Shown here in pieces: positions 2,178-19,470 of a DNA stretch of 20,332 bases; position 1 is the first letter of the stretch, and every line of letters starts with the position of its first letter. The position numbers and the translations under genes were made by a program. The DNA comes from a virus, in IMG/VR virus record IMGVR_UViG_3300030104_001375, positions 1 to 20,332 of that record; one strand, 5' to 3'. The notes beneath the pieces were generated by a model. It made no database searches, was not told where the DNA came from, and worked only from the letters and a program-made list of their open reading frames with translations.

Positions 2178-2286
2178 CTTGTTCTTCTGTTAGCTTTCTG
2201 ATTTGTACTGCTTGTACGCAAATCATTAATTCTTTTGGAAATTGTCTTTCTATTTCTTGGAGTACTTCTACTGGGGTAAGTTCCAT
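2158..2286 (-). CDS. Small 42-residue protein between fibre and endolysin
   Basis: A short gene beginning MELTPVEVLQEI and ending in an acidic tail (TEEQDDTNDE). It starts 2 bases after the fibre stop codon, has AGAAGGA 5 to 6 bases before the ATG, and overlaps the endolysin start by 20 bases. Spacing, ribosome site and overlap fit the tight packing of the neighbours, so I consider it real. The predicted product is one or two amphipathic helices with one cysteine and no hydrophobic segment, so it is not a second holin. I do not recognise a family. Its position suggests a fibre accessory or an assembly helper, which is speculation. Confidence 0.65.
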   Translation of the reverse strand: MELTPVEVLQEIERQFPKELMICVQAVQIRKLTEEQDDTNDE

Positions 2287-2288
2287 TT

Positions 2289-3968
2289 TTATCCTTCTAA
2301 CGTTGTTACTCTTGCTGAAAGTTCTTGAACCGCTTTTACTAACGGCGCTATTAATTCATTGTAACGCAAACCTTCACTAGCTGGGTACGTTTCTTCATTC
2401 CCGTCTGCGTCTGTTCCAGTAGCTTCAGCGTCTTGACACCACACAGCTCTAGTAGCTGCATCAGAACCAATAGCGCTAGCTACTTCTTGAGCCAAAAATC
2501 CCATGTGAGTTCTTGTCCCTTTGTAACCGCTTCTTGCATCCCATTTGTATGTAACAGGTCGCAAAGAATCAATAAACGTTAAACCAAGATCAATGTTTGT
2601 AATAGCTGTTTTGTCTCTTTCGTCAGACGTTTGAATAGTCCCATTTGTAGCACGAACATCATCCCATCGTTTAGACGACGTTCCTAAATCATAAACATTG
2701 TCATCGTAGGGGCGAAGATCACCGTCTGCTTCGACAACAGTTCTAAATTCACCTGCTGTCCTAATAAAAAAGTTTGAACCTGCTTGCTCAACGCCAATTC
2801 TAAAATCATCGTTGTTGTTCATACCGCAAACACCCAAATCAGTGCCGTCAGAACCTTCAAACAAAATTCTGTTACCAACAGTAGCACTACCACTACGTTT
2901 AAGTTTCATTCCATTTAACTCATCGTTCGTAATGACTAATTGACCAGTAGATGAAAGGTCCATGTGTTCTACTGGTGAAGCACCGTCAACTGCTGTTTTG
3001 AAAACTATGCCACAAGCATCATTATCATCCGTACTGCTACGTTTTTCAGCCCCAATCGTTGCCCCAAGAATAGTATTACCAGACGACCCTGAAGGAATAT
3101 AAAAATCAATTCCGGGTCCAGCTCCGGCTGCTAAATCAACATCATTTGTTTCAATTACTTTTAACTCAAGAACCGTGTCTAACGCCGCAGTGTTAACAAC
3201 ATGTTTTTGAATTGTTTGATGTTCAGCGCTTTCATCCCATTCCCAAAAAGAAGTGGTCGTAGCGCCATGGAACTTAACATCGTAACCAGTATCGTCAGCA
3301 CCAACTGTGATTGTGTTATCTGCTTGCGTTGGCTTTGCAAAAGTAATTTTTTCAGAACTATCGGTAGTAGTAAACGTAATATACGCATTATCAGCTTCCT
3401 CGATAATCAAAGCAGAAGCCTGGTTATCAGGAATTTTAATAGAGTTCTCACCAGCATTCGTAAATTGCAACGCACCATCAGCGCCACCAGACAACACTAA
3501 ATCGCCAGCAATATCAGCAGAGCTAGACAAATCAAGCGTAGCTGCATCTAATTCACCAGTTAGCGTAACGTTACGGAAACTAGCAATGTCCTTATCAGCA
3601 TCAACAACAACAGCTTTAGAAGCAACCACCGTTCCAGCAGTAGAACCATCAAGCAAATTAAGTTCAGCAGCACTTGAACTTACCGCAGTAGAACCCAAAA
3701 TTAAATCACCTTCAGGGATAGTAACATCACCAACAAACGTAGGTGTCGTATCCCAAGCAGAAGTACCAGTACCAGTACCAATTAGCACAGCACCAGAAGT
3801 AGGCGTGGTATCACCAGTACCCAACTTCTCCTCAATCTGCAACACAGCACCATTTACATTATTATGAATCGTCGCATGGTTAGGCGAATTAAGAGTATCA
3901 GAATCCGCTATATTATCAGGAAGCTCATTAGGATCTCTGTCTAAATCACCCGGAAATCTAGTTGCCAT
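2289..3968 (-). CDS. Tail fibre with C-terminal peptidase S74 chaperone
   Basis: A 559-residue fibre. Residues 27-50 carry the N-terminal fibre motif NSPNHATIHNNVNGAV..EEKLG. AELNLLDG at 101-108 is a motif often repeated in phage fibres. The middle (110-440) is rich in Gly, Ser, Thr and Asp and looks like a trimeric beta-structured shaft. From residue 448 the protein is an intramolecular chaperone: SDERDK supplies the S448/K453 dyad that in S74 proteins drives self-cleavage after trimerisation, followed by YKWD, HMGFLAQEV, LRYNELIAPLVKAV and a terminal coiled coil. The released C-terminal part would be 112 residues. AGAGGTG lies 6 bases before the ATG. The product most likely binds the host surface; the receptor is unknown. 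Confidence 0.9.
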   Translation of the reverse strand: MATRFPGDLDRDPNELPDNIADSDTLNSPNHATIHNNVNGAVLQIEEKLGTGDTTPTSGAVLIGTGTGTSAWDTTPTFVGDVTIPEGDLILGSTAVSSSAAELNLLDGSTAGTVVASKAVVVDADKDIASFRNVTLTGELDAATLDLSSSADIAGDLVLSGGADGALQFTNAGENSIKIPDNQASALIIEEADNAYITFTTTDSSEKITFAKPTQADNTITVGADDTGYDVKFHGATTTSFWEWDESAEHQTIQKHVVNTAALDTVLELKVIETNDVDLAAGAGPGIDFYIPSGSSGNTILGATIGAEKRSSTDDNDACGIVFKTAVDGASPVEHMDLSSTGQLVITNDELNGMKLKRSGSATVGNRILFEGSDGTDLGVCGMNNNDDFRIGVEQAGSNFFIRTAGEFRTVVEADGDLRPYDDNVYDLGTSSKRWDDVRATNGTIQTSDERDKTAITNIDLGLTFIDSLRPVTYKWDARSGYKGTRTHMGFLAQEVASAIGSDAATRAVWCQDAEATGTDADGNEETYPASEGLRYNELIAPLVKAVQELSARVTTLEG

Positions 3969-3978
3969 TATTCACCTC

Positions 3979-4407
3979 TTATGGAGTTAAGTCAATCGTA
4001 AAAATACCGCCAGCATTAAACGCAATCGTAAACGTTCCATTACTCGACGAGAAATCAGAACCAAAATCAATATATGCAATAAGCGGATCATCAGTTAAAG
4101 AATCATCATAAATTACAGCGCCCCTAGCGCTTGTAATTGTTGCAGAAGACCATGATGTGTCAGCAGCATCAAATTTGATTGTGCCACCTGTCTGCGTTAA
4201 AGACAAACTACTTAGCGTGTTACCACCTGAAGTGTACCCTGTCCCAGAAACTTCGTTAGATACATCGGCTTTAAAGTCATGCGCCCCAAAATCAGGGGTG
4301 TACGACGACGTAACCAACATAATCTTGATCGTGTCACTGTCCAGGTCTAACGCAAGAGTATTTTTCAAAGCGTTAAGAAAAGTTATTCCATAAAGACCAC
4401 TAGCCAT
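3979..4407 (-). CDS. Small structural protein next to capsid and fibre genes
   Basis: A 142-residue protein, probably all beta, starting MASGLYGITFLNALKNTLAL followed by SDTIKIMLVTSSYTP and a Gly/Ser/Thr-rich remainder ending GGIFTIDLTP. Proteins with this opening (a short helix, then an x-I-K-x-x-L-V strand and S-Y-T-P) are frequent in environmental tailed-phage genomes near capsid and tail genes and are annotated only as structural or hypothetical. No catalytic motif was seen. The start is firm: GAGGAG lies 8 bases upstream. It lies after the hairpin that follows the capsid gene, so it may be expressed at a lower level than the capsid protein. Possible roles are head decoration or tail assembly; nothing in the sequence separates these. 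Confidence 0.75.
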   Translation of the reverse strand: MASGLYGITFLNALKNTLALDLDSDTIKIMLVTSSYTPDFGAHDFKADVSNEVSGTGYTSGGNTLSSLSLTQTGGTIKFDAADTSWSSATITSARGAVIYDDSLTDDPLIAYIDFGSDFSSSNGTFTIAFNAGGIFTIDLTP

Positions 4408-4579: not shown

Positions 4580-5521
4580 TTAGTTAGCGCCTATTGAGGA
4601 TGATGTTTCAATCCTTCGGATACATTCCTCACGGAATCTTCCGTATCCTACAAGGTGATACCAACCTACTGTGTTGAATCGACGCAAGCTGTCGGTTACA
4701 GGACCGAACACGATGCTTGGGTCCGCACCGAAACCGGCTGCCCGGCTGTGTGCTTTCGCAAGAGCTTGTCTACCAACTATTACAGTTTTGTATTCATCAA
4801 CATTGGAAGCACCAGCGTCAGCGGTTAGCGTGATTCTTGGTGTTTCAATGAAATCAACTCCACCGAATGTACCGATGCTACCAGTGCGGACACCAGCTCC
4901 ATCTTGGCGAATTTGATGTTGAATAACGTCAGTTACGGCTGTAGCTTTACGCAGATCGTAGGAAACGTCAGGGTGGATAAATCCAACGTAAACGTTGCCG
5001 TCAAATGCAGGCGCAGAAGCAGTCCGTAGGTTAGCTACACACTGTCGAACAAGATCAGCGGTGATAATGTCACCTGCTGCTAGTTCTCCTGTAGCGGTTG
5101 CATCGCCACCGTATAGAACGTTGCTGCCTTCAGTTACGATGTCGTGAACAATCTTATCCAAGCTGTCACCCATGTTGTAACCGATAATATTAGCAGCGTC
5201 AGCGTCTATGTTTAAGAAGCTGGTTCCACGTGCTTTAGCGGTGGTTTGTATTGTATTACCGTACTCAGCAAGTGTTACTGTAACTTGTGCATCACCCATT
5301 GTTGATGGTGTGAGGTCAGAAGTTTCAGAAATTGCTGAAGTAGCTTGTGATAAATCGCTGTACTTTGTGAACTTAACGCTTGCTCCAGCGTGCGATTGGT
5401 TTGTGGTTTTCACATCGCAAACCATCTCAAAGAGAGGTTGTGATCGCAACGCAAAGTAAGCGAGCTGTTCAAACGCTGCATTACCAGCGGAGTTCAGCGA
5501 ACTCATTTGTGTTATTGCCAT
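4580..5521 (-). CDS. Major capsid protein, N4-gp56 type
   Basis: A 313-residue protein resembling N4-gp56-family major capsid proteins (HK97 fold). Supporting features are the central TLAEYGNTIQTTAKA segment (E-loop and early spine region), the long helix region around DSLDKIVHDIVTEGSNV, GFIHPDV in the P-domain and the terminal GWYHLVGYGRFREE (286-299), a typical ending of this family. It forms the icosahedral shell. A scaffold gene lies directly upstream and a hairpin directly downstream, the classical arrangement for the most abundant virion protein. The ATG at 5521 has GGAG about 9 bases upstream, inside a possible small stem (5522-5551). There is no N-terminal delta domain within this ORF, in agreement with a separate scaffold. 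Confidence 0.9.
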   Translation of the reverse strand: MAITQMSSLNSAGNAAFEQLAYFALRSQPLFEMVCDVKTTNQSHAGASVKFTKYSDLSQATSAISETSDLTPSTMGDAQVTVTLAEYGNTIQTTAKARGTSFLNIDADAANIIGYNMGDSLDKIVHDIVTEGSNVLYGGDATATGELAAGDIITADLVRQCVANLRTASAPAFDGNVYVGFIHPDVSYDLRKATAVTDVIQHQIRQDGAGVRTGSIGTFGGVDFIETPRITLTADAGASNVDEYKTVIVGRQALAKAHSRAAGFGADPSIVFGPVTDSLRRFNTVGWYHLVGYGRFREECIRRIETSSSIGAN

Positions 5522-6160: not shown

Positions 6161-7084
6161 CTAATTTTGTGCTGATCCAAGACCAGTAGCGCCCATTCCG
6201 GTTACCAAACCACCGGCTCTTTGTTCCGCTGCTGCTTGTCTACGTTGCCGTAATCTACGCACTTGAGCGGTAGATTCTGAGTCTAAACCAAACGACGCTG
6301 CTGCTAACTCTGTTGAAGTCACAGCATTCTGTTCACCGAATACTTGTTGTGTTAGACCTGCTTGTTGACTTAAACGCTGTGATATTTCACGTTGTTGTAC
6401 GTTCTGCCCGGCTAGTTGTCGAGCTACACCTGTGCCTATTCCCTGGCCTGTGGCTTGTATTGCTGCTGCTGATAAGCCAGCGGATTCCATTTGTAAGCGT
6501 TGTTCTATTACGTTTACGCCTCTGTCAGGGTCTAGGAAATACGCTATGAGTTCTCCGTCGTTTTCTGTTCCTATGCCGTACATTTCACGCAACTGGTTTT
6601 TGAGTTCAGGGTTGACGTTGGATACGGCTGTTGTCGCCATTGAGACTCGTTGTGTCATTTCGGCAGGTGATACATCGTTGCCGATAAAGTCTGCAAAGTC
6701 GTCAGGGTTGTCGTAGAAGCCTTCTGGTAGTCCTGCTGCTGCCATTGTTTGACGGTAGTCTCGTTCTAGTCGTATGTATTCTGCTGGGCTGATAGCTGGC
6801 AGTCCTTGTTGTCTGCGTAGTTCCAAGCCTTTGAAACGTTCTTTGAATACGTCTGTTTCTTTGAGTTGGATCATTACGCTGTCTGTCGAAGCGCCTTCCA
6901 TTAAGAAACGGTAAGCGTCTCCTGCTAGTCCTTCTAAGCCATAGGTGGCTAATGTGTCTCTAATAATTGTTAGTGCATCTCTGTCATCTTGGGTTTCTTG
7001 CGCTTCCATAACAGCATCATCTGTTAGCACTGTATCTTCTTCTTCAAACGCTTCAGTAAAAGCTCTTACATCTCCCATGCCCAT
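6161..7084 (-). CDS. Structural protein, probable internal virion protein
   Basis: A 307-residue, mostly helical protein. Its centre (80-190) carries FKERFKG, GLPAISPAEYIRLERDYRQ, AGLPEGFYDNPDDFADFI with DVSPAEM, and AYFLDPDRG. This chain of motifs recurs, in my recollection, in structural gene blocks of actinobacterial and aquatic phages, where it has no assigned function. The C-terminal 100 residues are Gln/Ala/Gly-rich with a basic patch (RRLRQRRQ) and resemble flexible internal proteins. GGAGG lies 7 bases before the ATG. The start forms a TAATG junction with the 584-residue gene, so the two are probably co-translated. A part in DNA ejection is inferred from the company of three other large proteins between portal and scaffold. 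Confidence 0.7.
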   Translation of the reverse strand: MGMGDVRAFTEAFEEEDTVLTDDAVMEAQETQDDRDALTIIRDTLATYGLEGLAGDAYRFLMEGASTDSVMIQLKETDVFKERFKGLELRRQQGLPAISPAEYIRLERDYRQTMAAAGLPEGFYDNPDDFADFIGNDVSPAEMTQRVSMATTAVSNVNPELKNQLREMYGIGTENDGELIAYFLDPDRGVNVIEQRLQMESAGLSAAAIQATGQGIGTGVARQLAGQNVQQREISQRLSQQAGLTQQVFGEQNAVTSTELAAASFGLDSESTAQVRRLRQRRQAAAEQRAGGLVTGMGATGLGSAQN

Positions 7085-8838
7085 TACGCTACCTCCCCAA
7101 ACGTTTGCCCAATAGAGAACGACAACGCCCTCGCCTGGTCTTTAGCATCATCAGTCTGTTGCCACTCAGGAAGCGCACGAACAAAGTTCCGAACCTCAGA
7201 AAGAGTCATTGGTCTAGCATTAGTACCAGCATCAGGAATGTACTCAATAACATCAGAAAACTCATCCAACATATCCACCTGCCTGCCAAGCATCTGCTCA
7301 ATCTGATACTTGTACGGTGAGAAATACTGATCCGGTGTAATACCCATTTGATTAATAACTTTATCTAACGTCGGGAACCTAGATACAGCAGTAGCTTTCA
7401 AATACTGCTCATACTCTGTTTGCGTAGCTTCCCCAGTGTAAATCTTCTCAGCCCAATCCTGAGCTGTATCTTCTGTCTGTGGCACATAGTATTTGTACGC
7501 TAACTGTTCTAACGCATCTCGACCTGCTGAAAAATCAGAGAACTCATTGGTTATTTCGTAGTTAGCTAACTGTCCGATAATCATTTCACGGATAGCTTCT
7601 GTGTCTTCACTATCACCGTTTTGCGCTAGTGTTTGCGCTAAAGAAAATGCGTCTTCTTCGTTTAAATCGAATCCTAGGAATTGTGCTTCTTTGGTTAGTG
7701 CGTCTGTTGTTGGCTCTAGGAACTCTTTTCGTTCTGGGTCGCTCATTTCGCCCCACATGACATCGTATGTTCGTCGGGCTACGTCGGTTGTTTGCCACCA
7801 TTCTGTTTTTTGTAGGAGTCCTTTGACTCTGGTCATGCTGGTTATGCCGTTGTTGACGATGTAGTCCATTAACCCTATTTGGGATTCGGCTGATTCGTCG
7901 TCGTAGCTGACGATGGTTCCGTCTGCTGTTACTCCGATAAGCATGTTTGTTGCGTGTTGTCTGAAGAAGTAGCTTGCTCCTCCGAATTGTTCTTGGAGTA
8001 GTGAGTATATTTCATCTCGGTCTGCTTCTCGTTCAGCCATCATTCGAGCAGCATTAGAACCACCCCCACCGGAACTGCCTAGTTGGTCATCTGTTGATTC
8101 TTCTTCTGCCGGAACTGTACCTTTTGTACCTGGAACAGATTGCCCTAAAAAACCTGCAAAGCCAGCAAAAGCATCATCACCTTTAGCCATTTCCTCGCTA
8201 ATAATTGCTGCGCCACCTTGGTCATCAAAAACTTTGCCTGTTTCTCTTGCTTGTGCAAGACCTTCTAAACCTCTTTCAAGCGTTTCAGCTTGAGGTGAAG
8301 GAGCCGCTTGCGTATCAGACGAAGTAACAACATTTTCTGCTGTTTCAGGAGATTGAATTAACTGACTAATTACTTCTGGTTTATCTTTATTAAGCACCAA
8401 GGCTGCAACTGTTTGAACATTCTGTTCTTCATTTAACGCTTTATAGAAATCATATTTAGGAGCAAAACTTTCTCTAATGTCAGTTTTAATATTTTCTAAT
8501 TCAGTAATTTCTAAACTTTTAATATCATAATTAGACTGGTCTAACCCTACAGAATTAACAACGGTTATTACTTGGTCACGGATTTTATCTAACGCTGGTT
8601 CTGTGTACTCAACATCTCCAGCAAGTATGCCAATAATTGTGTCAATGTACTCTGCTTGCTTATTAGCTTCTTCAAGTTCTTTCTTGGCATCGTTTACAGC
8701 AGATTCATAATCTTTATATGTTTGAGTGTTACCAGTGTATTGAGATCCAAGAGAAGGATAATAATCATTGGCTGATAATTCCCCCGCAGGTTTTACTTTC
8801 TCACGTTCTATAACAGCATCAAGATCAAATAAAGTCAT
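7084..8838 (-). CDS. Structural protein with Gly/Ser linker, probable internal virion protein
   Basis: A 584-residue protein in two parts. Residues 1-250 contain a charged helix (NDAKKELEEANKQAEYIDTI, about 49-68) and a Gln/Ala/Glu-rich stretch. A flexible linker, SSGGGGSNAAR (about 255-265), leads into a C-terminal part with GLLQKTEWWQTTDVARR, LEQLAYKYYVPQTEDTAQDW, EQYLKATAVSRFPTLDKVI and a closing DYA/QYFSPY-like helix. This WWxTT plus AxxYYV plus YLKxxAxxxFPTL pattern recurs in actinobacterial phage structural genes, from general knowledge. GGAGG precedes the ATG, and the start overlaps the previous gene as ATGA. Third-codon composition switches sharply at the linker (see findings), suggesting a composite origin. 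No lysozyme or transglycosylase catalytic motif was seen. The molecular role is unknown. Confidence 0.7.
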   Translation of the reverse strand: MTLFDLDAVIEREKVKPAGELSANDYYPSLGSQYTGNTQTYKDYESAVNDAKKELEEANKQAEYIDTIIGILAGDVEYTEPALDKIRDQVITVVNSVGLDQSNYDIKSLEITELENIKTDIRESFAPKYDFYKALNEEQNVQTVAALVLNKDKPEVISQLIQSPETAENVVTSSDTQAAPSPQAETLERGLEGLAQARETGKVFDDQGGAAIISEEMAKGDDAFAGFAGFLGQSVPGTKGTVPAEEESTDDQLGSSGGGGSNAARMMAEREADRDEIYSLLQEQFGGASYFFRQHATNMLIGVTADGTIVSYDDESAESQIGLMDYIVNNGITSMTRVKGLLQKTEWWQTTDVARRTYDVMWGEMSDPERKEFLEPTTDALTKEAQFLGFDLNEEDAFSLAQTLAQNGDSEDTEAIREMIIGQLANYEITNEFSDFSAGRDALEQLAYKYYVPQTEDTAQDWAEKIYTGEATQTEYEQYLKATAVSRFPTLDKVINQMGITPDQYFSPYKYQIEQMLGRQVDMLDEFSDVIEYIPDAGTNARPMTLSEVRNFVRALPEWQQTDDAKDQARALSFSIGQTFGEVA

Positions 8839-9623
8839 CGACGACCTCCAATACCAGCAGCCTGCATAATCAAAGAAGCAGCATTAGCATGATCCATAGC
8901 ACCAGCCTCAACCGGAGCAGCATCTCTAGCGAACTGTTCAGCTTGAGCGCCAACAGCGATACTAGCAATACCAGAAGCTTGCATACCATGAATCTTAGAA
9001 ACAAAGGATTTCATCTCATCATTCGTCATTTTACGACCAAGCACAGACGCAGACGCATCATTCAACGCTGCCTGCAACCCAGCCGGGTCCATATAATTCA
9101 CAATTCTTTTAGGAGCATTCTCAGCATCTATCTCAGCTACACGATCTTGGAATGCTTTTGCGAGTTCAGCAGATGTCATTTCACCAACATCTCCTCGTCG
9201 AAGAATGTCTAGAAAAAATGTGTTGTCGTAGGCTACTGCTTCTTCAGCTAATCCAATAACTCCCTCAACAACAGTTTGAAAATTAGGTATATTTAACGAA
9301 CCGTCATCGTTAAAAATTTGTTCGTAATCTCCTCCGTATGAGCCAGGTATATTAAGAAAAATTTCGTATGCAATAGCTTTCTGCTCTTGCTCTCCTAACG
9401 CTCCAATAGCTTGACGTATAGTATCTGACATGATCGCAGATTGTTGCATTTCAACTTCTGCACCACGACCTCTTCGAGATGGACCTGCTGCGGAAGCTTT
9501 AGTGTCCATTGGTACAGTTTCATACCCTATAATGCCTCTAACAGCACCATACGCAGCCGAACTTGCTTGAGCAGCAGTAACACCGTATTGATCTTCAAAT
9601 TTTTGTCCGTAATTTTCTGCCAT
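8835..9623 (-). CDS. Helical structural protein, probable internal virion protein
   Basis: A 262-residue, Ala-rich, largely helical protein. It opens with ENYGQKFEDQYGVTAAQAS. The C-terminal half has NYMDPAGLQAALNDAS, ASVLGRKMTNDEMKSFVSKI and a Met/Ala/Gly-rich ending (AASLIMQAAGIGGRR). The DPAxLxxxL...LGRKxTxxE segment resembles helical pieces found beside lytic or ejection proteins of other phages, but I cannot name a family. AAGG lies upstream of the ATG, which directly follows the stop of the giant gene, and its own stop overlaps the 584-residue gene as ATGA. That places it within one translationally linked set of four. No membrane segment or catalytic motif was seen. Confidence 0.65.
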   Translation of the reverse strand: MAENYGQKFEDQYGVTAAQASSAAYGAVRGIIGYETVPMDTKASAAGPSRRGRGAEVEMQQSAIMSDTIRQAIGALGEQEQKAIAYEIFLNIPGSYGGDYEQIFNDDGSLNIPNFQTVVEGVIGLAEEAVAYDNTFFLDILRRGDVGEMTSAELAKAFQDRVAEIDAENAPKRIVNYMDPAGLQAALNDASASVLGRKMTNDEMKSFVSKIHGMQASGIASIAVGAQAEQFARDAAPVEAGAMDHANAASLIMQAAGIGGRR

Positions 9624-12600
9624 TTATACCTTCATTAAAGAAACAAAACTGTTTTTGGGTATCATGTCGTTTTCAAAATATCTGTCGTACACAACCGAAA
9701 ATTCTGGTCGTTTAGATAATTCTTCTTTTTCTCTTTGCCAAAACAATAATAGGTCAGCGTTAGTGCCAGATTCTAGATTCAAGCTTCCATTTTCCTCAGC
9801 GTGTCTACGAACTAGTTCTTGTTCGATAAAGCCACGCAGTTCAAAGTAATCAATTAAATGCCTGGCCGATGGTCTGGTTGTAGTTAAGTCAGAGAACTTA
9901 TCGTCACTTAATGCAACGACAAAGCCTTCGATGACTCTAGCCATTTTGCCTTCATCTCTACCTGAATCCCAAGCTTCACCCCATAACGGATGTTCTTGCC
10001 GTATTAAATCTATTTGTTCTTGTTTAAATCGTTGCAGATCAGACATTGCTGTACTGTTCAAACTGTACGGCAAACCTAAAGCTTGTCGATCATCTTGTAT
10101 AGTGCGAATAAAGTCACTTAACTCTGTGTATTTAGTCCAGCCTTCGCTAACGTCAACGCCTTCAATAAGCGCTTTCGGTGATTTAAGTTCACGACGTTTC
10201 AAACCCGGAGTTAACGGACTTACATCCATTGTGGTTTGGCGACGATACGCTGCTTGATTAAACAAGTACTCCTCGTCTTTACCGCCAAGACTTAACGTCA
10301 CCCACGCACCTATTTCAGGATGTGACTGCACAAGGTCTTGATACTTTATGTACGCTTCTTCTGACACAGCAGACGCAGCAACACCATCGTTCAATTTAGT
10401 CATTCGACTAGTTAAGTACACGAACTCTTCTCCGTGTTCTTCTAAGAACAACGCTGTTCCTTCGTCGTAACCGTGTTGTCGTTGCAATTCTTTAATTTGT
10501 TCCATTAAATCTGCGTAAGGTGAAAGCATTGTTGTTGATGTAGGTGAGAACAAGCCAGCAGCAGATCGGAACATAAAGAACTGCTCTGCACGTTCTTCAG
10601 ATTCTTTAACTCTTTGCAACACCCATTGCTCGTTACCTAAAAGACTTGAAATGCCACCAGGCGTTGATTGCTCATACTCTGTTAATACTTGTTTAAAGAA
10701 GTATGTTACTTGCCGTTTCTTGGCTGGTGTGTCCATGTAAATGTTGCGTAGGTTCTGAGCGTATGCTGGAGCGAAACTTGCAAATGTTTGTTCAAAGAAA
10801 CCGCCTTCAGGATGCCCAAATGGAAACATAAACTTAAACGTGTCTTCTAATGAAGGATCTTCTAACACGGCTTGCCTAATAGGTATTGACGCTAACGGTC
10901 CAACACCCGGAGTTGTTGACTGAAGCATTGACGCTAAACCCTCTTTGCTAAACCTAATATCGTTATCTATTAACGCTTGAGATAACGGACCAGGTGTTAA
11001 TACGCTTGCAAGGTTTTTGACTGGTTGCGGTAACCTAAACACAATATAGCTTTGCGTAGCGAACTCACGTTTTTCTTCGTCAGTTAAATCACGACCTAAT
11101 TCTTCTCGACGTTCAGCTATCTTCGCTTCATCGTATTGGTACACTTCTTCCATACCTAAGTATTTGGCGTTCCACGGTGTCTGATACATGTTGACCATTT
11201 TGCCTACAAAGTAAGGATTTTCTGTAGCGAGTTTGCTCCATCTACCTAACACTTCTTGCCAAGCGTTAAAGAATGGGAATATGTTTGCTGTGATTTCAGC
11301 GAACCTTGTTTCTTCAGCTAAATCATATAACAGATCTCTGGTTTCTTTGAGAGCTGATTTTCTAGCTTGGTCTTCTATCTTCGTTAAGCTTTTTTGCGAA
11401 ATGTTTACCATGCCGTCAGCGTCTGTGTATAAGGCTAGTCTGCGGTTTACTTCTCGTTCGTATTTTGTTCTGTAGTATGGGTTTCTTGATAGTTGATCGG
11501 CTGGTGTTTCGCCTAGTATTTTGAACATGTTTTCAACGAACTCTCCCATAGCTCCGGTGAATGCTCCTCTGCCGTAGTCTATGGTTCGCATGTTTGGTGA
11601 CGTTGATTTACCAAAGTTTGTTATGCCTGTTTGTTCACGAAATTGTTCAACAATAAATTTTAAATCAGTTGTAGGAGCGTAGAAGCCTGCGTCTACTTGT
11701 TCTTTAAAGTCTTTGCGTAGGATTGTTTCTACTTCGTTCCAAGTGACATTACCGCCTGCTGCTGCCTTCGCACGCAAATCGTCAAAGCCGTAACCAGCAG
11801 GCAATATCTCATTAAATTCATCAATAATGTCTCTAGCTTTTTGTGTAAAGTTAACAACGTCAGGTTCAGTATGGTATTTAATTGCGTCAGTTAAACCAAG
11901 CCTTGCTCTCAAATCAGCATTTTCACGCAACAACTTAGCTAAACCTTCAACATCGTCAGACCAGGCAAGTTTGTAAAATTCAGGATGCCTGTCACTGATC
12001 TTTGTGGCACGCCCAAGCAAAGCATCCCAGCCTTTAACGTATTGCGATTTTGTAGTGCTTGCAGAAGTTATATCCCAGAGTTCCCAGTCAGCGTCAACAA
12101 ATCGAAGGATTTCACGCTTTTGTGCTTGAGTAACGCCTTGCATTAATGAAGATGTGCTTCTAGTTGATGAAACAGACGCAGAAATAATTTCACGGAAGTC
12201 AGCAGTATCACCGTATCCGTTACGCAATGTCGCACCGTATACGCTCATGTTAGCCATGCCAGCTTTGTCCATTAACACATGCGCTCGTTCTAAATTGTCA
12301 GTAATGTCATCAATGTTTTCAATACTTACCCCTTCAGGTGTAATGACATCAATGGCTTCTCGCATACCGTCGGCTCTTGAAAGCATTGTTTCTGCTTGTT
12401 GTCGAAGACCTGCGTCACCGTTTTCTAACGCTTCAGATAATAGTTTCCTAGCTTCTACTTGCAGTCCTTCTGCGACTGTTAACCCGGCTTGCCGTCTTGC
12501 TACGTTTCGTACTCGTTGGTATCGTCTAGCTCCGTAAATAGTTGACCAAGCTATCGCTGGCGTAAAGCCAAACAATGCTGAACCTATTGCTAGCCTCGCT

Positions 12601-15410
12601 AAACCTGCTTTAGTCATTAATTGTTGTGTTGGTTTAGGCACGAACTTGTCAACTTTAGTTTGATTTAAATTTATTTCTTTAACTGTTTTATCAATTAAGT
12701 TATCTATCGTTACGCCTTTAGATTCGTAATGCCTTAAAGCATCGCCCAAATTTTTAACATTAGCGTTTTGCTCAACGGCTTCATCAAATATTTTAGGAAC
12801 AAAATCATCAAGTCCCATCTCAACGCCACGGGTCGCATACACATTACGCATATCACCAAAGCCACCAATAAGATTACGCAACTCATTCATCACACCCAAA
12901 TCAGCAGCACGACGCAACGTTTCATCCAACTGCACACGACCAGGCCATTTAGGAGTCAACAACACGAAAGGTCGCCAAATTTGCATAGTTGACGTAGCTA
13001 ACGAACTACCAGATGTTCCGACAAGCCTAGCCCCATCTTTAGTTTTCTGTAACGTTCGTGTCCTACGATTACCAAACTTATTAAACGTTCTATTTATTTC
13101 AGTATTGACAAGATCCCAACGTGGCATAACGCCTGACTGACGCATCTGCTGAGGAGTCATACCTGTCATAATTGTATGAATAGTTTTTGTTTCAGGGTCT
13201 TGCACTCTATACGTTGTTTGTTTATTTGTCGCTGATATTGTTCGACGGCCAGGTCGGTCAGTGTCCATGCCTTTTCTAGCTTGACTAGCTTCGTTAATTG
13301 TTCTACCGCTTTGTAAACTATCCCCTATTGTCAGTTTCTCATCAATTTGTTTCTCAATTTGCTTTCTGGCTTCTATCATGTTGTCAGCTAAACCAGATTT
13401 CATACCTTTGCTTGTTTTACTAATAAGTTCATCTGCTTTCCGAGACAAATTATCAACAGTGTTATCAAATAATTGTTTAAACTGAACTGGGTCACTACCT
13501 CTAGCAGTTATCCTGGCCCACTCACCAAGCAACTGGTCAATTTCGGTTCTAGTAATAATTCGTTGGTTTCTAGCTTTGCCTGCTACTTTGCCCGGTATTT
13601 TAACTCTTGACGCTGCTTGAAGCATTCTTTCAAATTGTGTAAACGCTTGGGTGTCTTGGAAATCTATTAACGCTTGAGGGTTACGTTCTGAGAAGAATCG
13701 TAGTTTGCGGAAACCTAGAGGATTGACAACGCTTCTAACGTAGTATTCTTCGTATCCTCCGTTAATGTCTTTTCTATCTCCGAAACGTTTCTCTAATCGA
13801 TTTATTGATCTGGTAAAATAATCTCCGAATGCGTCTGTGTAAACTTTAGCAACAGACGCTGTTGGTTCGGCTATTGATTTTAATTGAGCTACTTTCATGT
13901 TCTCTAAGCCAGCTATCCGACGCAACATCATTTCAGTCAAATCTTGAAGATCAGCGTTCGTGCCAAGAATGTCAGGATACTTCAAAGTAGGTTGACCATT
14001 CTCATCAAACACTTTCCTACCTTGAGACTCAATCACACCTAAATAACCGTCGTACATGGTTACCCAATCAACGTCATTTAAACCAGCAGATTTCTCAGCG
14101 ACTTCTTTCTCTAACCGAGCTTTCTCAGCTTTTAGTTCTTTCGTTACTGCTTTTTCAACATTTTCACTATCAGCTATTAACTGCCTAACGTCATCTAAAT
14201 CATTTACTGCTGACAAAAAACTGTCATCTGTCATTAACGCTCTGGCAGCGGTTGCTGCTTCGCCAACTTCACGAAACACGCTCATGTCACCCATAACGAA
14301 CCTAGCGTTTAATCTTCTTGCTTGCGGAGTAGCACCATTAGCTATCGCAAACGCTGCTTCTTCAGGCATCCTGCTACCTTTACGACTTAACGTTTCCCGA
14401 AGAATACTGAATCGTTTATCAGTCGCTATTTTCGCTGCATCAGGGAGCAACACGCCACTTCCGTCAAAACCGTTACTAGCTTTCACATAATCTGCGCTAA
14501 CTTCATCCATAGCTTGCTCAACTTTTTGCCACCCCTTACTATTCAAGTAACCGCCTCTAGCAACACCATCAGCTCCGACAACACCGTTAATTCGTTGCGA
14601 CACAACTTGTTGCCCGACAAGGTTCCTAGCAGCAATTTGTTGATCGTTTAAACGTGGCTTACCTAACAAAGTTTGTTTAAATATGCCACCGCCAGGTGTG
14701 TAAATTTTTTGTGGAGCTATGATGCCACCCATTTTTTCAAAGTTAGATCGACCTAAATGCGTTACGACATTGCCAGCGTTGTCTAAAGAAGCGATAACTG
14801 TTTTGCCTCGCAGAATGTTTGCACCGCCACCTAAAGCTATAGCCATTGGATCAGCGAACTCTTGGAAGAAATCTGCTGTTCCTGAAATAAGGTTAAATAA
14901 TGAATCTTCTCGAATGTCGTTGTACGCATCCTCATCAAACGGATCTATGTTGTATATGGCAGCAGCGACGGATTGACCAAACGTTCTTTTGTCGTTTATT
15001 TCCCAAGCTGAAGCCCATGTTGACCCATCAAACAATTCGCTTATGTCAGTGCCTGATATGCCAGCGTTAATAACTGTTGCTAATGTTCCTAGCGGTCTGT
15101 CAACAGCGTTTTGTATGGTCCAGTCCCATGCTTCCATTGTTGGTTCAAGCACAGTACGAAAAGGTTTACGCACAAACTCAGGTAACCCTCCAACAACAGA
15201 ACCAACGATTCCTTCAGGACCAAACGCACCGCCAATGACTTGCCCAAGTAAATCTTCTTGCACTGAATCAACAAAAATCTTGATACCTTCACCGGGATCA
15301 GTCGTTGCTTTAGCTAACGCTCTGCCTGTATCGTAAACAAATTCAGCGCCTCCACCGACAACGTCTATAACACCGCCGACAACACCACCGACACGATCAA
15401 AAAAACCCAT
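9624..15410 (-). CDS. Giant structural protein, probable DNA-ejection protein
   Basis: A 1928-residue protein (roughly 210 kDa), 28 percent of the window. The N-terminus is Gly/Val-rich and hydrophobic (residues 8-35), followed by FVRKPFRTVLEP, RPLGTLATVINAG and WEINDKRTFGQS. A charged coiled coil lies near 411-442, Arg/Lys-rich helical stretches near 600-780, a hydrophobic segment (LARLAIGSALFGFTPAIAW) near 930-955 that could insert in a membrane, and IFPFFNAWQEVLGRWSKLA near 1375-1393. Its size, helical content, hydrophobic patches and position after the portal resemble the large ejection proteins of short-tailed phages (T7 gp16, N4 vRNAP-sized internal proteins). No polymerase, methylase, ADP-ribosylation or lysozyme motif was seen. 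A tape measure is an alternative, but no tail-tube genes are present. AAGGA precedes the ATG; the start forms TAATG with the gene before. Confidence 0.75.
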   Translation of the reverse strand: MGFFDRVGGVVGGVIDVVGGGAEFVYDTGRALAKATTDPGEGIKIFVDSVQEDLLGQVIGGAFGPEGIVGSVVGGLPEFVRKPFRTVLEPTMEAWDWTIQNAVDRPLGTLATVINAGISGTDISELFDGSTWASAWEINDKRTFGQSVAAAIYNIDPFDEDAYNDIREDSLFNLISGTADFFQEFADPMAIALGGGANILRGKTVIASLDNAGNVVTHLGRSNFEKMGGIIAPQKIYTPGGGIFKQTLLGKPRLNDQQIAARNLVGQQVVSQRINGVVGADGVARGGYLNSKGWQKVEQAMDEVSADYVKASNGFDGSGVLLPDAAKIATDKRFSILRETLSRKGSRMPEEAAFAIANGATPQARRLNARFVMGDMSVFREVGEAATAARALMTDDSFLSAVNDLDDVRQLIADSENVEKAVTKELKAEKARLEKEVAEKSAGLNDVDWVTMYDGYLGVIESQGRKVFDENGQPTLKYPDILGTNADLQDLTEMMLRRIAGLENMKVAQLKSIAEPTASVAKVYTDAFGDYFTRSINRLEKRFGDRKDINGGYEEYYVRSVVNPLGFRKLRFFSERNPQALIDFQDTQAFTQFERMLQAASRVKIPGKVAGKARNQRIITRTEIDQLLGEWARITARGSDPVQFKQLFDNTVDNLSRKADELISKTSKGMKSGLADNMIEARKQIEKQIDEKLTIGDSLQSGRTINEASQARKGMDTDRPGRRTISATNKQTTYRVQDPETKTIHTIMTGMTPQQMRQSGVMPRWDLVNTEINRTFNKFGNRRTRTLQKTKDGARLVGTSGSSLATSTMQIWRPFVLLTPKWPGRVQLDETLRRAADLGVMNELRNLIGGFGDMRNVYATRGVEMGLDDFVPKIFDEAVEQNANVKNLGDALRHYESKGVTIDNLIDKTVKEINLNQTKVDKFVPKPTQQLMTKAGLARLAIGSALFGFTPAIAWSTIYGARRYQRVRNVARRQAGLTVAEGLQVEARKLLSEALENGDAGLRQQAETMLSRADGMREAIDVITPEGVSIENIDDITDNLERAHVLMDKAGMANMSVYGATLRNGYGDTADFREIISASVSSTRSTSSLMQGVTQAQKREILRFVDADWELWDITSASTTKSQYVKGWDALLGRATKISDRHPEFYKLAWSDDVEGLAKLLRENADLRARLGLTDAIKYHTEPDVVNFTQKARDIIDEFNEILPAGYGFDDLRAKAAAGGNVTWNEVETILRKDFKEQVDAGFYAPTTDLKFIVEQFREQTGITNFGKSTSPNMRTIDYGRGAFTGAMGEFVENMFKILGETPADQLSRNPYYRTKYEREVNRRLALYTDADGMVNISQKSLTKIEDQARKSALKETRDLLYDLAEETRFAEITANIFPFFNAWQEVLGRWSKLATENPYFVGKMVNMYQTPWNAKYLGMEEVYQYDEAKIAERREELGRDLTDEEKREFATQSYIVFRLPQPVKNLASVLTPGPLSQALIDNDIRFSKEGLASMLQSTTPGVGPLASIPIRQAVLEDPSLEDTFKFMFPFGHPEGGFFEQTFASFAPAYAQNLRNIYMDTPAKKRQVTYFFKQVLTEYEQSTPGGISSLLGNEQWVLQRVKESEERAEQFFMFRSAAGLFSPTSTTMLSPYADLMEQIKELQRQHGYDEGTALFLEEHGEEFVYLTSRMTKLNDGVAASAVSEEAYIKYQDLVQSHPEIGAWVTLSLGGKDEEYLFNQAAYRRQTTMDVSPLTPGLKRRELKSPKALIEGVDVSEGWTKYTELSDFIRTIQDDRQALGLPYSLNSTAMSDLQRFKQEQIDLIRQEHPLWGEAWDSGRDEGKMARVIEGFVVALSDDKFSDLTTTRPSARHLIDYFELRGFIEQELVRRHAEENGSLNLESGTNADLLLFWQREKEELSKRPEFSVVYDRYFENDMIPKNSFVSLMKV

Positions 15411-15790
15411 TATTGATCCTTATTAATAAAATCTTCAGTGTTTCCTACAAATGCTCTCATTTTACGAACAGTGTTACGCAACTTCGGATTAGCGAAAGGT
15501 TCAGAAGCCATAGCCTCTAACGCAGGCAAAGCAGCCATAATACGCATACGACGTTCAATCGTGATTTCAGGTGCAACAGGTTGATTAGGTAAACCAGCAG
15601 TACCAATAGGTTCAGCAGGTCTTTCCGTAGGTCGATTAAACGCTGACTCGCCAGGTCGCATCGTAGGTATCTGCGGTTCTTCCATTTCAGGCAACGCAAC
15701 AACACCCTGCGATTCTTCCTGCATTTTTGCTTGACCGTACTGTTGACCAGTAGCAGTCTGCGTTTTCTGACCTTTACCTTTTCGTGGCAT
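15410..15790 (-). CDS. Small portal-linked protein
   Basis: A 126-residue protein beginning MPRKGKGQKTQTATGQQYGQ, an opening I recall from small proteins encoded beside portal genes in several actinobacterial and aquatic phages. The middle is Pro/Glu-rich and probably disordered (PEMEEPQIPTMRPGES). The C-terminal 50 residues are helical and basic (ERRMRIMAALPALEAMA, KLRNTVRKMRAF). It starts at a TAATG junction with the portal stop, with GGAG upstream, and ends in TAATG with the giant gene, so it is probably made together with both. A virion or assembly role is likely from position; the precise job is unknown. It is too disordered to call a head-tail adaptor. Confidence 0.7.
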   Translation of the reverse strand: MPRKGKGQKTQTATGQQYGQAKMQEESQGVVALPEMEEPQIPTMRPGESAFNRPTERPAEPIGTAGLPNQPVAPEITIERRMRIMAALPALEAMASEPFANPKLRNTVRKMRAFVGNTEDFINKDQ

Positions 15791-17556
15791 TACAACGCTC
15801 CAAGAAGTTCACGCAAACCGGCTGCCCCTCCCTCGGCAGGAGGCGGTGCTACCATAGCTTCTGCTCCTGCTCCGGGCTGGGCTATGCCAGGTTGTGCTTC
15901 AGGGGATGTGGGAGATACCATTTCGGCTTGACGTTCCTGCGCTTCACGCTGTACTTTCTCAACAGCTTCAGGCAATTCCATTCTGTCAGACTTAACGAGT
16001 TCAATAATTCGAGCAACATCAGACGGCGGTATAGCCCCCGACGCTGCTTGCTGCTGAATGCCAGCCAACAAACTTTGCTCTAATTGTTCAGACGTAACAG
16101 CGTCACGTTCAGATTCAACATCCTCAACCAGAGGATCTATTTTCATAAAGGATTCTTTCGACATCGTTCCCATTGCCAGCCTTTGACCGCCAGCGATAAC
16201 AAGATTATTAATGTCAGCCCCAGCGTGACTATAACTGACCACATTGTCATCTGTCGTAAAGTGCTTGTTCGGAACATAATCTACCTTGCCTTTTACTTTG
16301 CCCATAGAAACATAGAAAGACTTAGACTTATTACCTGCATGAGCTTTTGCCATAGCAATAGCTATCTTGTTTTCTGTTTCTAACGAGCGAGCAAGGATAC
16401 GTTGCGATTCCTGAACAGCGAAATCAACAACAGCGGAAAGCACAGCATCACCACGGCGACCAGTACGAATGTTACTCGTAGACTCGCCACCGAACTCGGC
16501 AGGGACACCAGCAGTTAAACGTTGCGCTCTTTCCAAACGATCAATAGCAGGGTTCGTCATGAAACCTGGCTGTAATTGCATGTCTCGCAAATCACCGCCA
16601 CGAAGAACACCAACCTCACCTGTCAACCCATTCGCAGGGTTAATAATAGTTGGTTGTTCACCAGCACGACCCACTAACCATGTATCAGGGAAAATACCCT
16701 TTTGCACAGCTATGACTTCTAAAGCCATAAGCTTTGCTTGTTGTTGATACATTCCTAGTATGCCGTCAAACTGACCGTTCGGTTCATCTAACGATATTCG
16801 CTGTGACATGATGACCGGGCAAACACCTGTCAAGTTAGGTGTGCGTTCCAGCTCTGCAATAATTGGTTCGTGATTATCGTTCATTGTATGCACGCCAACA
16901 CTATGAGCAGGATTGTGTATTGCTATTAAAACGTATTCTTCACGGTCAACGTATTCGATAAGTTCAACAGGTCTGTCATTGTCGTATGGTGCTTCGTTAA
17001 CGCCAGCGAATCGTAACGCAGCGTCAGGATAATGTCTACGAATCCAACCTTGCGAACGCTCATAACCAAACACGCAATCAACAGGACTCATTTCATCAGG
17101 TCCACGCAAATTAGACGGATACGCTGTTAACGGATCACGCACATTCCAAGTAGGACAATTTTTTTCATGGTCAAACCGTATTTGCACAATACTACTTGCA
17201 TATCCGATAAGATGCCTTGCACGTTTTGCAAGTTGCATATCAATGCGAGAGTTCTGCCACCAACCAAACAAAGCTTTGCGGCGAATCGCAGCGAACTTTT
17301 GCGCTTGCTTCGATGACTCATCTTCAGGTGGGCAAACAATATCAGGAGTAACAGACGCTATACGCATAGCAGTCTGATCCAAACCCTGCGCTAACAAATT
17401 AGCAACAGATGAAGCTTCCGTAGAATCTATTTCAGGTAACGGTACGATAACGTCACCGTTGTAATGGTCACGGATAAGACGCATGCGTTCTTTGACACCA
17501 GCATGATTAGATGACCGTGTGTAGTACAGGTCTACGATTTGTTCAGCGCTTTTCAT
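15790..17556 (-). CDS. Portal protein
   Basis: A 588-residue portal. It starts at ATG 17556, four bases after the terminase stop begins, and follows terminase as in most tailed phages. Recognisable portal features are an N-terminal helical wing region (YYTRSSNHAGVKERMRLIRDHYNGD), a stem region around WNVRDPLTAYPS and PVELIEYVDREEYVL, the long helix GMYQQQAKLMALEVIAVQ, and the helical crown part from LERAQRLTAGVPAEFGGES onward (STSNIRTGRRG). The last 50 residues are rich in Pro, Ala and Gly and look disordered. Portals form the 12-subunit ring through which DNA enters and leaves the head. Length is within the usual range. The ribosome site is weak (AGAAAG), so coupling to terminase translation is likely. 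Confidence 0.88.
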   Translation of the reverse strand: MKSAEQIVDLYYTRSSNHAGVKERMRLIRDHYNGDVIVPLPEIDSTEASSVANLLAQGLDQTAMRIASVTPDIVCPPEDESSKQAQKFAAIRRKALFGWWQNSRIDMQLAKRARHLIGYASSIVQIRFDHEKNCPTWNVRDPLTAYPSNLRGPDEMSPVDCVFGYERSQGWIRRHYPDAALRFAGVNEAPYDNDRPVELIEYVDREEYVLIAIHNPAHSVGVHTMNDNHEPIIAELERTPNLTGVCPVIMSQRISLDEPNGQFDGILGMYQQQAKLMALEVIAVQKGIFPDTWLVGRAGEQPTIINPANGLTGEVGVLRGGDLRDMQLQPGFMTNPAIDRLERAQRLTAGVPAEFGGESTSNIRTGRRGDAVLSAVVDFAVQESQRILARSLETENKIAIAMAKAHAGNKSKSFYVSMGKVKGKVDYVPNKHFTTDDNVVSYSHAGADINNLVIAGGQRLAMGTMSKESFMKIDPLVEDVESERDAVTSEQLEQSLLAGIQQQAASGAIPPSDVARIIELVKSDRMELPEAVEKVQREAQERQAEMVSPTSPEAQPGIAQPGAGAEAMVAPPPAEGGAAGLRELLGAL

Positions 17557-17559
17557 GTA

Positions 17560-19470
17560 TTAGCTTTCTGTTACCCACGAAGGTCGCCATTGCTTCACTG
17601 GTTCAAGCATAGGCGTATACAATTTTTCAAGGTTATGTTCTACGAACCATTGTGCCATCACACAGTCATCAGTTCTAGACCCTGTACCTTCTGGGTTCCA
17701 TTTTGTTACCTCATTCACCAACAACAAGGAATGAGGTCTAGCATCAGTTCTTTGCTTACCAGGCAATCGAATACGACCCAACCTGTACAACGGAGCCAGC
17801 ATTTGCACCCCATACTTCGGGTCACCCTTGTTACGAGAGTGCGTGTAGTGCGGTACTAGCTCTACACCTCGTAGAGCTGACCACCTTCGGAAATGATCGT
17901 ACTGCAAAATAAACTTTTGAGCTGCGTTAGCTTCGACTATCCAATGCGTAATAGGGTGACCTATCTCATTACTTATCTGCCACCATTCTTCAGCTATGCC
18001 AGTAAACTTTTGTGTGTCATGGTTCCAGTCAAGGAACGCTGGTGCATCCATTTTGCGACGATACGATTCCAACAAGTACCTGTATTCGCTGTCAGGACAG
18101 TACGCCCAGCATTGCAACGCCCAAAAATTAGATGGTGACGGGTCAGCAGACGCTACGACCATTACATCACCGGGCAAATAGCGTGGCACTTCCCACAAAT
18201 CACGGTCAGTGTCCCAACAACCAATGTAATCGACACCGTTTTTGCCTTGCCCGCCAGTAATCCAAAGCGGATCTACAAGCACTGATGCAGGGTCAGAGTC
18301 CTCTTGCTGGTACAGTATTTCGTATCGGTCAGGTGTTTGTGCTTTCACATGCCGTATTTTTCGCCACGGCAACCGTCGAGGATATAACAAACACCCTTCA
18401 GGGTATGGAGGAGCGTCTAAACCATGTAACTGTTCACATTTATCCTCATAATGAGCTTTATATTTAAGATGGCTGTACTTACGTTCGCCTTCACCATCTA
18501 CCTTGTCATTATCTACTTCGGGTGCATCGTAATCCTCATCTAACGGAGCAAATTTATCTAAAGCATAACGGTAAATATCGTCAGAAGCCATACGCTGACC
18601 CTGCAACACAAGCAAACCACCCGGCTCTAACCGTGTTTCAGCTACCTCATCCCACCAACGATACATGTCAGAACGAGATTCCGAGTTACGCATCTTGCGA
18701 GGATCCCAAACATCATCCCAAATAATAAGATCAAAGCGACCACCTAGGAAACCAGAGTCCATACCGAACGCTGACCATGACGGTTCTTTCTGCGATAAGG
18801 CTACGTCACCTGGTTGCACAATGGTGAATGCTTCTGCACGCCATATTTCTTTAGCGTCAGGTTTAAACTGACCGAAGTCTTGCTGTAATGTGCGTTCAGC
18901 GTCAACCGCTAACCCTAATTTAATGTCGTTTATTTCGGCACGGGCAACATGCTCACGTTCAAACTCCGCACGCAAACGCCGTGTATACCATTCAGCAAGA
19001 CGTTGCGTTGAGGAACCGAGCATTCCCCTAATACCCCTATTACGGACTGTCGCCCATGCCGGAAGCACCTTAGCGAAAAACGTTGACTTACCGCTGCCCG
19101 GCGGTGCATTTATAACAACGTATTCCTCTATAGGTGTTTCAAAAAGCGAAAAAATTTTCTCAGTGGCTTCTATCTGCCACGGTTGTAGGATAATCCCAAA
19201 ATAGCGTAACGCAAATTTCTCTATGTTGTCCCAACACTCTTGTATTTCAGGATCTAATTCTTCATAGCTAGGTATGTCAGATACGCCTAGCTTGCCGACT
19301 TGTTCCTTGGCAACCACATAGTTGCGAGTAGATGCAGCGCCTGATTCGTTATCTCTAGCTGAATGATAGTTAACGCCAGCTTGTTTTGCTGCTTTCCAAA
19401 TGCTGTTGCTACGTCGAAGAATAAGGTATTCAACCCATTTTTCTACTGGTGTAGCTTTACCTGATGCCAT
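17560..19470 (-). CDS. terL: Terminase large subunit with N-terminal HTH-like segment
   Basis: A 636-residue DNA-packaging motor. The ATPase part has Walker A APPGSGKS (122-129), Walker B FDLIIWDD (246-253) and a likely coupling motif near LLVLQGQR (286-293). The nuclease part has the acidic residues of the RNase H-like fold: VVASADPS with D443, HWIVEAN with E513 and SRTDD with D601/D602. The first 45 residues are extra: NSIWKAAKQAGVNYHSARD (22-40) looks like a helix-turn-helix, as in small terminase subunits. The gene leads the packaging cluster and is followed by the portal. The ATG at 19470 lies within the end of a 47-codon ORF. The family is certain; the DNA-binding reading of the N-terminus is inference. 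Confidence 0.95.
   Translation of the reverse strand: MASGKATPVEKWVEYLILRRSNSIWKAAKQAGVNYHSARDNESGAASTRNYVVAKEQVGKLGVSDIPSYEELDPEIQECWDNIEKFALRYFGIILQPWQIEATEKIFSLFETPIEEYVVINAPPGSGKSTFFAKVLPAWATVRNRGIRGMLGSSTQRLAEWYTRRLRAEFEREHVARAEINDIKLGLAVDAERTLQQDFGQFKPDAKEIWRAEAFTIVQPGDVALSQKEPSWSAFGMDSGFLGGRFDLIIWDDVWDPRKMRNSESRSDMYRWWDEVAETRLEPGGLLVLQGQRMASDDIYRYALDKFAPLDEDYDAPEVDNDKVDGEGERKYSHLKYKAHYEDKCEQLHGLDAPPYPEGCLLYPRRLPWRKIRHVKAQTPDRYEILYQQEDSDPASVLVDPLWITGGQGKNGVDYIGCWDTDRDLWEVPRYLPGDVMVVASADPSPSNFWALQCWAYCPDSEYRYLLESYRRKMDAPAFLDWNHDTQKFTGIAEEWWQISNEIGHPITHWIVEANAAQKFILQYDHFRRWSALRGVELVPHYTHSRNKGDPKYGVQMLAPLYRLGRIRLPGKQRTDARPHSLLLVNEVTKWNPEGTGSRTDDCVMAQWFVEHNLEKLYTPMLEPVKQWRPSWVTES

Follow-up and report, generated by a model that had tools for sequence, protein, structure and literature searches.

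Keto and Amino Zones in the Window

What reverses the preferred third codon base inside a single gene? The question is raised by a 584 amino acid gene of an uncultured, tailed marine phage (phrog_6654, function unknown), encoded on the minus strand at 7084-8838 of the window, the 20,332-base IMG/VR virus record analyzed here in full. Bases were classed as keto (K; G or T) or amino (M; A or C) and scored at codon position 3 on the coding strand. According to the original prediction 48 of 58 codons at 7087-7260 end in T or G and 55 of 60 codons at 7801-7980 end in A or C. Both counts were reproduced exactly (T/G 5/60 in the second stretch). The drift described between the two stretches was also recovered, with T/G-ending codons at 28/40 in 7321-7440 (the reported 14/20 plus-strand A/C), 18/40 in 7501-7620, 5/20 in 7621-7680 and 2/20 in 7681-7740.

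Gene calls were made mechanically and the main genes of the window all lie on the minus strand. They include the terminase large subunit gene (17560-19470), a 588 amino acid gene (15790-17556) which is portal-like by position and had no family match, a 1928 amino acid gene (9624-15410), a 262 amino acid gene (8835-9623) and, beyond the 584 amino acid gene, a 307 amino acid gene (phrog_8424; 6161-7084). The major capsid gene (4580-5521), tail fibre (2289-3968), endolysin (1455-2177) and holin (1213-1476) follow. The N-terminal 260 codons of the 584 amino acid gene are variable and its C-terminal part is conserved. Conservation of the 1928 amino acid gene is very uneven, with islands above 80% identity amid stretches below 25%, and most relatives are keto-rich at the best-conserved island (codons ~810-840). 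A 272 amino acid gene at 382-1200 is composed of imperfect SGTASVAPSVIAGATTTPSATI-like repeats and is possibly a surface or fibre protein.

The keto and amino patches in silent bases are real and far beyond chance. Between 40-codon windows, codon-3 keto content varied far more than in synonymous shuffles (variance ratio 4.9, z 38). The other axes were near the null (purine/pyrimidine ratio 1.4, GC (S/W) ratio 1.2). Shuffling inside each gene only left a keto variance ratio of 2.0 (z 22). Random synonymous sampling did not account for the zones: the extreme 60-codon stretches of the window were 3% and 92% keto, and keto content always stayed within 23%-83% across 500 genome-wide synonymous shuffles. 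From window to window the use of C in NNY codons and of A in NNR codons co-varied (r 0.43, null sd 0.10).

By HMM segmentation the window contains eight strong zones rather than two, and all are given on the minus strand. The two zones seen originally correspond to a K zone at 7093-7464 (80% of silent third bases G/T) and an M zone at 7648-8034 (94% A/C). The other M zones are in the 307 amino acid gene (6410-6961) and in the 1928 amino acid gene (11403-11765), the latter being near-neutral in the relative L036. Further K zones cover the 3' end of the 262 amino acid gene (8812-9137), a conserved island of the 1928 amino acid gene which is keto-rich in most relatives (12795-12965), the end of a 142 amino acid gene with the conserved N-terminal part of the tail fibre (3354-4113) and part of the terminase large subunit gene (18532-18735).

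Distribution of the Pattern

Approximately 90 related contigs were fetched from IMG/VR. The GC content of the clade ranges from 38 to 59% and the terminases are 79-98% identical to that of the window. Within genes the pattern was positive in 46/46 clade contigs tested (keto ratio 1.24-2.84, median z 9.5). The same statistic showed it in 0/198 contigs of five other phage groups. The maximum z was 2.6 among 54 marine T7-like and 27 HTVC010P-like contigs and 3.0 among 41 T4-like, 22 distant T4-gp23 and 54 Kumquat-like contigs. Within-gene keto ratios were 0.90-1.12 for T7, T4 (49 kb), lambda, Pelagibacter phage HTVC010P, cyanophage P-SSP7 and Kumquat, and ct2KA10, a more distant capsid relative, was negative. 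As the clade contigs were positive and all comparison groups negative, the pattern was found in one clade only. In cultured phages the capsid is matched most closely by those of Streptomyces phages, for example Kumquat (Beephvirinae), with 36% identity and a similar gene order; unlike the window clade, Kumquat and the 54 contigs related to it are without keto/amino patches. No report of such patches was found in the literature, where the search covered open-licence papers only and is hence weak evidence.

GTDB genomes searched with the terminase and capsid gave no host match, and no tRNA gene with a readable anticodon hinting at a host was found. In L097-L116 codon-3 keto content on the coding strand was 0.56-0.63 in late plus-strand genes and 0.42-0.51 in early minus-strand genes, and the plus strand was mildly keto-rich nearly genome-wide. 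A late gene with an apparent signal peptide start and a long acidic tail (L102:17263-18427) is present in most long clade genomes. The relative G003 encodes DpdA (7-deazaguanine DNA modification, Pfam E 1e-70) and a C5 cytosine methylase (L101:3315-4067 and L101:790-1797, both minus strand). DNA modification was rejected as the cause of the zones: among the ten long genomes searched DpdA was confined to G003, and apart from G003 the methylase had just a distant match, in G011.

Scale and Persistence of the Zones

Domains were roughly 200-500 bp and the strand sign flipped from domain to domain. The amino-acid-corrected keto autocorrelation fell from 0.067 at up to 30 bp to 0.039 at 121-240 bp and 0.016 at 241-480 bp, with none left past ~480 bp. 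Across gene borders it was approximately one third to three quarters as strong. Strand asymmetry from replication or transcription resembles the zones in producing a keto/amino strand difference, and the plus strand is mildly keto-rich overall. The zones differ from it in being patches of ~300 bp inside genes, with opposite signs on the same transcript. It was rejected on the sign flips within one gene and the short reach of the autocorrelation.

Homologues agreed in local keto state at aligned positions even at third-base identities of 0.2-0.45. The covariance between homologues was equal when restricted to codons with different amino acids. The state of a domain outlives individual bases, the silent sites being saturated in homologues. 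In many relatives the 584 amino acid gene was low in keto at codons 281-400 and high at codons 521-584. Zones had changed in places. Codons ~1260-1350 of the 1928 amino acid gene were 7-21% keto in the window versus 43-50% in L036, and near codon 900-960 L036 was 0-7% keto versus 40-46% in the window. Comparison of switch points in homologues and other genomes, which the original prediction had proposed as a check, showed the pattern to be clade-specific and conserved in position.

This persistence bears on mosaic ancestry, an explanation offered originally and taken here as pieces derived from donors that differ in codon preference. Mosaicism is present in the genomes and zones differ between some relatives. 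Against this, all relatives are patchy with none uniformly keto or amino, GC content (the usual donor signature) is constant across zones, and the zone state persists while single bases turn over. Donors of opposite preference did not stand as an explanation, given the lack of a uniform relative and the positions kept at saturation, and ancestry of this kind is very improbable; what was retained of the claim is that the zones adjoin mosaic joints.

A regional force without recombination, whether selection or mutation, could act through RNA-binding, decay, antisense transcription or another DNA-strand function. It agrees with zones that are positional and long-lived and with a correlation that extends past gene borders at reduced strength. 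The association with homology breaks described below would not follow from such a force, which is considered unlikely.

Divergence was not raised in the zones. In close pairs successive differences were mostly not sign-coordinated, and most pairs had no strand-coordinated recent clusters. The exception was the 1928 amino acid gene in the comparison of the window with L036 (z 6.2). A burst of localized hypermutation was rejected, as the sign-coordinated recent changes it predicts were mostly absent and zone divergence was not raised.

A Force on Bases and Not on Codons

In M zones each A- or C-ending codon was enriched, including Ile ATA and Arg AGA, and in K zones almost every G- or T-ending codon was enriched. 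The response was common to all 18 amino acids in low-GC and high-GC subclades alike, with GGC and TGC responding weakly. A/G sites and C/T sites responded about equally. In fourfold boxes a one-parameter keto/amino tilt beat a transition tilt by 75, 76, 13 and 17 log-likelihood units.

Leucine codons were informative as the first base can also change silently. The ln M/K values were +2.31 for CTA, +2.11 for CTC, -0.04 for TTA, +0.03 for CTT and -1.36 for TTG. The silent T/C change at the first base acted like a third-base change and the two effects were additive. With the third base held constant the leucine first base tracked the local keto content. Intergenic gaps tracked the keto state of the flanking genes (rho 0.48, n=99). 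Within alignment columns the carriers of keto synonyms sat in regions of higher local keto content, with values of ~+0.06 for silent sites and ~+0.12 for the leucine first base. The 2248 columns with tolerated amino acid variation showed no response (+0.004 ± 0.003; Ile/Val alone +0.026). The uniform codon response, the leucine first base, the gaps and the silent columns together indicate a force on bases at silent sites. This force is weak relative to protein constraint and hardly touches the amino acids.

These results uphold the original claim that only synonymous choice changes and that neither uniform mutation bias nor tRNA adaptation is able to explain the zones. The leucine first-base response refutes translation as the sole cause. 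Wobble or tRNA adaptation was ruled out by this response together with the intergenic gaps and the rise of ATA and AGA. The same three observations oppose selection on translation speed, by which a minimal tRNA set would match A/C-ending codons by Watson-Crick pairing and read G/T-ending codons by wobble. The match of the keto/amino axis to wobble pairing and the unresponsive amino acids fit such selection, which is nevertheless scarcely credible.

Avoidance of RNA or single-stranded DNA structure was also considered, each locality taking one poorly self-pairing class of silent base. It would explain why the keto/amino axis alone is affected, since twofold sites offer just C/T and A/G. Real sequences folded 3-5% more stably than synonymous shuffles, as did controls, and a shuffle preserving keto/amino state was no less structured than a free one. 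With DNA parameters the M zones were not less structured and the K zones only marginally so. Selection on RNA structure, as proposed originally, did not hold, local folding being no weaker than in either kind of shuffle and the two kinds hardly differing. Structure avoidance is highly doubtful.

A Proposed Link Between Zones and Exchanged Modules

The two largest variable modules in the window are the N-terminal part of the 584 amino acid gene (8068-8846, minus strand) and the distal tail fibre (2187-3326, minus strand). The first has an amino acid identity of 15-35% to most relatives versus 80-100% downstream in near relatives. Its flanks had keto contents of 0.82 on the 5' side, formed by the K zone at 8812-9137, and 0.12 on the 3' side. 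The flanks of the second were 0.77 (5') and 0.39 (3'). When modules were called objectively, keto content was higher 5' than 3' in 10/11 genomes, G012 being negative, and the flank asymmetry was weak in one subclade. Keto extremes were commoner in conserved segments, where bins below 0.25 rose from 1% to 7% and bins above 0.8 from 4% to 20%.

A sign rule was formulated by which keto content should track the conservation upstream minus the conservation downstream. The rule was suggested by the window and one relative, making it partly post hoc, and the relatives are phylogenetically linked. It was positive in 15/15 sequences of the late cluster (window rho 0.50, z 3.6, 150-codon flanks) and in 11/11 long genomes. 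Plus-strand genes beyond the endolysin, which were not used to form the rule, were positive in 10/10 genomes (mean rho 0.30, mean z 1.8). The rule was mostly positive in the 1928 amino acid gene and weak in the terminase-portal region. It failed in early minus-strand genes (mean rho -0.19, n.s.).

Pairwise homology breaks were defined by an identity of at least 94% on one side and at most 55% on the other. Keto content was 0.63 immediately to the left of the breaks and 0.53 immediately to the right. The left minus right difference was 0.099-0.150 within 50 codons, compared with a null of ~0 ± 0.03 in which 0/150 shifts were as large, and it decayed by 100-150 codons. It survived amino acid correction and removal of the capsid gene. 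The difference was 0.22 where the flanks span a gene border and weak within genes (0.036, p 0.03). No general keto gradient was found at gene starts or ends. The opposite order was seen at a variable island of the 584 amino acid gene (codons ~401-460), with M before and K after.

That the domains flank segments exchanged between relatives, with the keto-rich strand having its 3' end directed at the break, is supported but not proven. The tendency of the patches to adjoin exchanged segments points to recombination rather than protein coding.

Proposed Mechanism

The phenomenon is solid and from it we infer a mechanism. The preferred reading is a recombination-linked force on 3' single strands, with weak selection for keto-rich 3' tails as the first choice, at a probability of roughly 40%. 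The keto-rich strand would be the top strand 5' of a break and the bottom strand 3' of it. Resection from 5' to 3' would leave single the strand whose 3' end faces the break, so that end resection during recombination may expose the 3'-ended strands on which the force acts. Weak selection would then keep 3' tails keto-rich for efficient pairing with diverged partners. A keto strand paired with a transition-diverged partner forms G.T and not A.C mismatches. For the transversions in the tilt a preference for G+T is a better account than this mismatch argument. RecA filaments have their greatest stability on TGG repeats and TG-rich strands (PMC3763553).

A PD-(D/E)XK nuclease (Cas4/RecE-like) was present in 10/10 long genomes searched and SSB in 9/10. 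No recombinase was identified in the clade phages. The strand geometry at breaks, the RecA preference and the nuclease and SSB suggest recombination as the setting. To our knowledge RecA is universal, so its preference alone leaves the restriction to one clade unexplained.

The main competing explanation with the same strand geometry is recombination-linked mutation, in which exposed 3' strands beside breaks gain C to T and A to G changes and so build keto content. Yeast mutations switch strand across a break (PMC6786661). The roughly equal responses at A/G and C/T sites are as mutation of this kind would give. The tilt includes transversions, however, and beats a transition-only model, and tolerated amino acid sites are unresponsive. 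Zone divergence is not raised and, outside the 1928 amino acid gene of the window and L036, most close pairs lack strand-coordinated clusters. A sequence-dependent mutational effect, as suggested originally, is possible in this recombination-linked form, though improbable. The class of the tilt and the lack of recent clusters make us lean towards selection on pairing (or drive) over mutation of exposed strands.

Selection on the pairing of 3' tails may be extended, tentatively, to a recombination signal that is spread over the silent bases and has no motif. Modules open to exchange would be bordered on either side by 3'-pointing, keto-rich flanks, which would ease swaps between diverged relatives and be kept by weak selection or pairing-driven drive. 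This extension is possible but doubtful.

Silent sites are often taken as neutral or tuned to tRNAs, and here they are under a strong regional force that changes sign and acts irrespective of codon. Methods based on dN/dS, codon adaptation and host prediction would be misled in this clade by such a force. If the link to module joints is true the zones are a readable trace of where and how phages recombine, and a long-standing question, whether the composition at joints steers mosaicism in phages or is a product of it, becomes open to test.

Comparison to Known Systems

GT-rich islands around Chi in the E. coli RecBCD/RecA system have a strand-oriented G/T enrichment discussed as favoring RecA pairing (PMC3763553). 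The clade zones share the strand-oriented enrichment. They differ in that the strand flips every few hundred bases, silent sites reach 0-5% or 90-95%, G+T appears to be followed rather than a motif, and one phage clade is concerned. Codon usage may reportedly explain the E. coli islands (Biaudet et al. 1998) and is no explanation for the clade zones. Enrichment of G/T on the putative pairing strand near breaks was seen in plus-strand late genes and not in early minus-strand genes.

Kataegis at resected breaks resembles the clade zones in marking the top strand on the left and the bottom strand on the right (PMC6786661). In yeast break-associated mutation the mutated base is C left and G right of the break (PMC6786661). 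A strand switch of this type was seen at the homology breaks, with keto left and amino right, an observation that is partly post hoc. Unlike kataegis the clade zones include transversion classes and not one lesion type, are kept over long divergence, and are without recent clusters in most close pairs.

The sequences TGCGT, GCGTTG and CTGGTG were over-represented on the keto strands of K zones of the clade to a degree that keto content does not account for (for example GCGTTG 157 versus 70 expected), a possible oriented motif. An excess of TGCGT was also seen on the keto strand in M zones.
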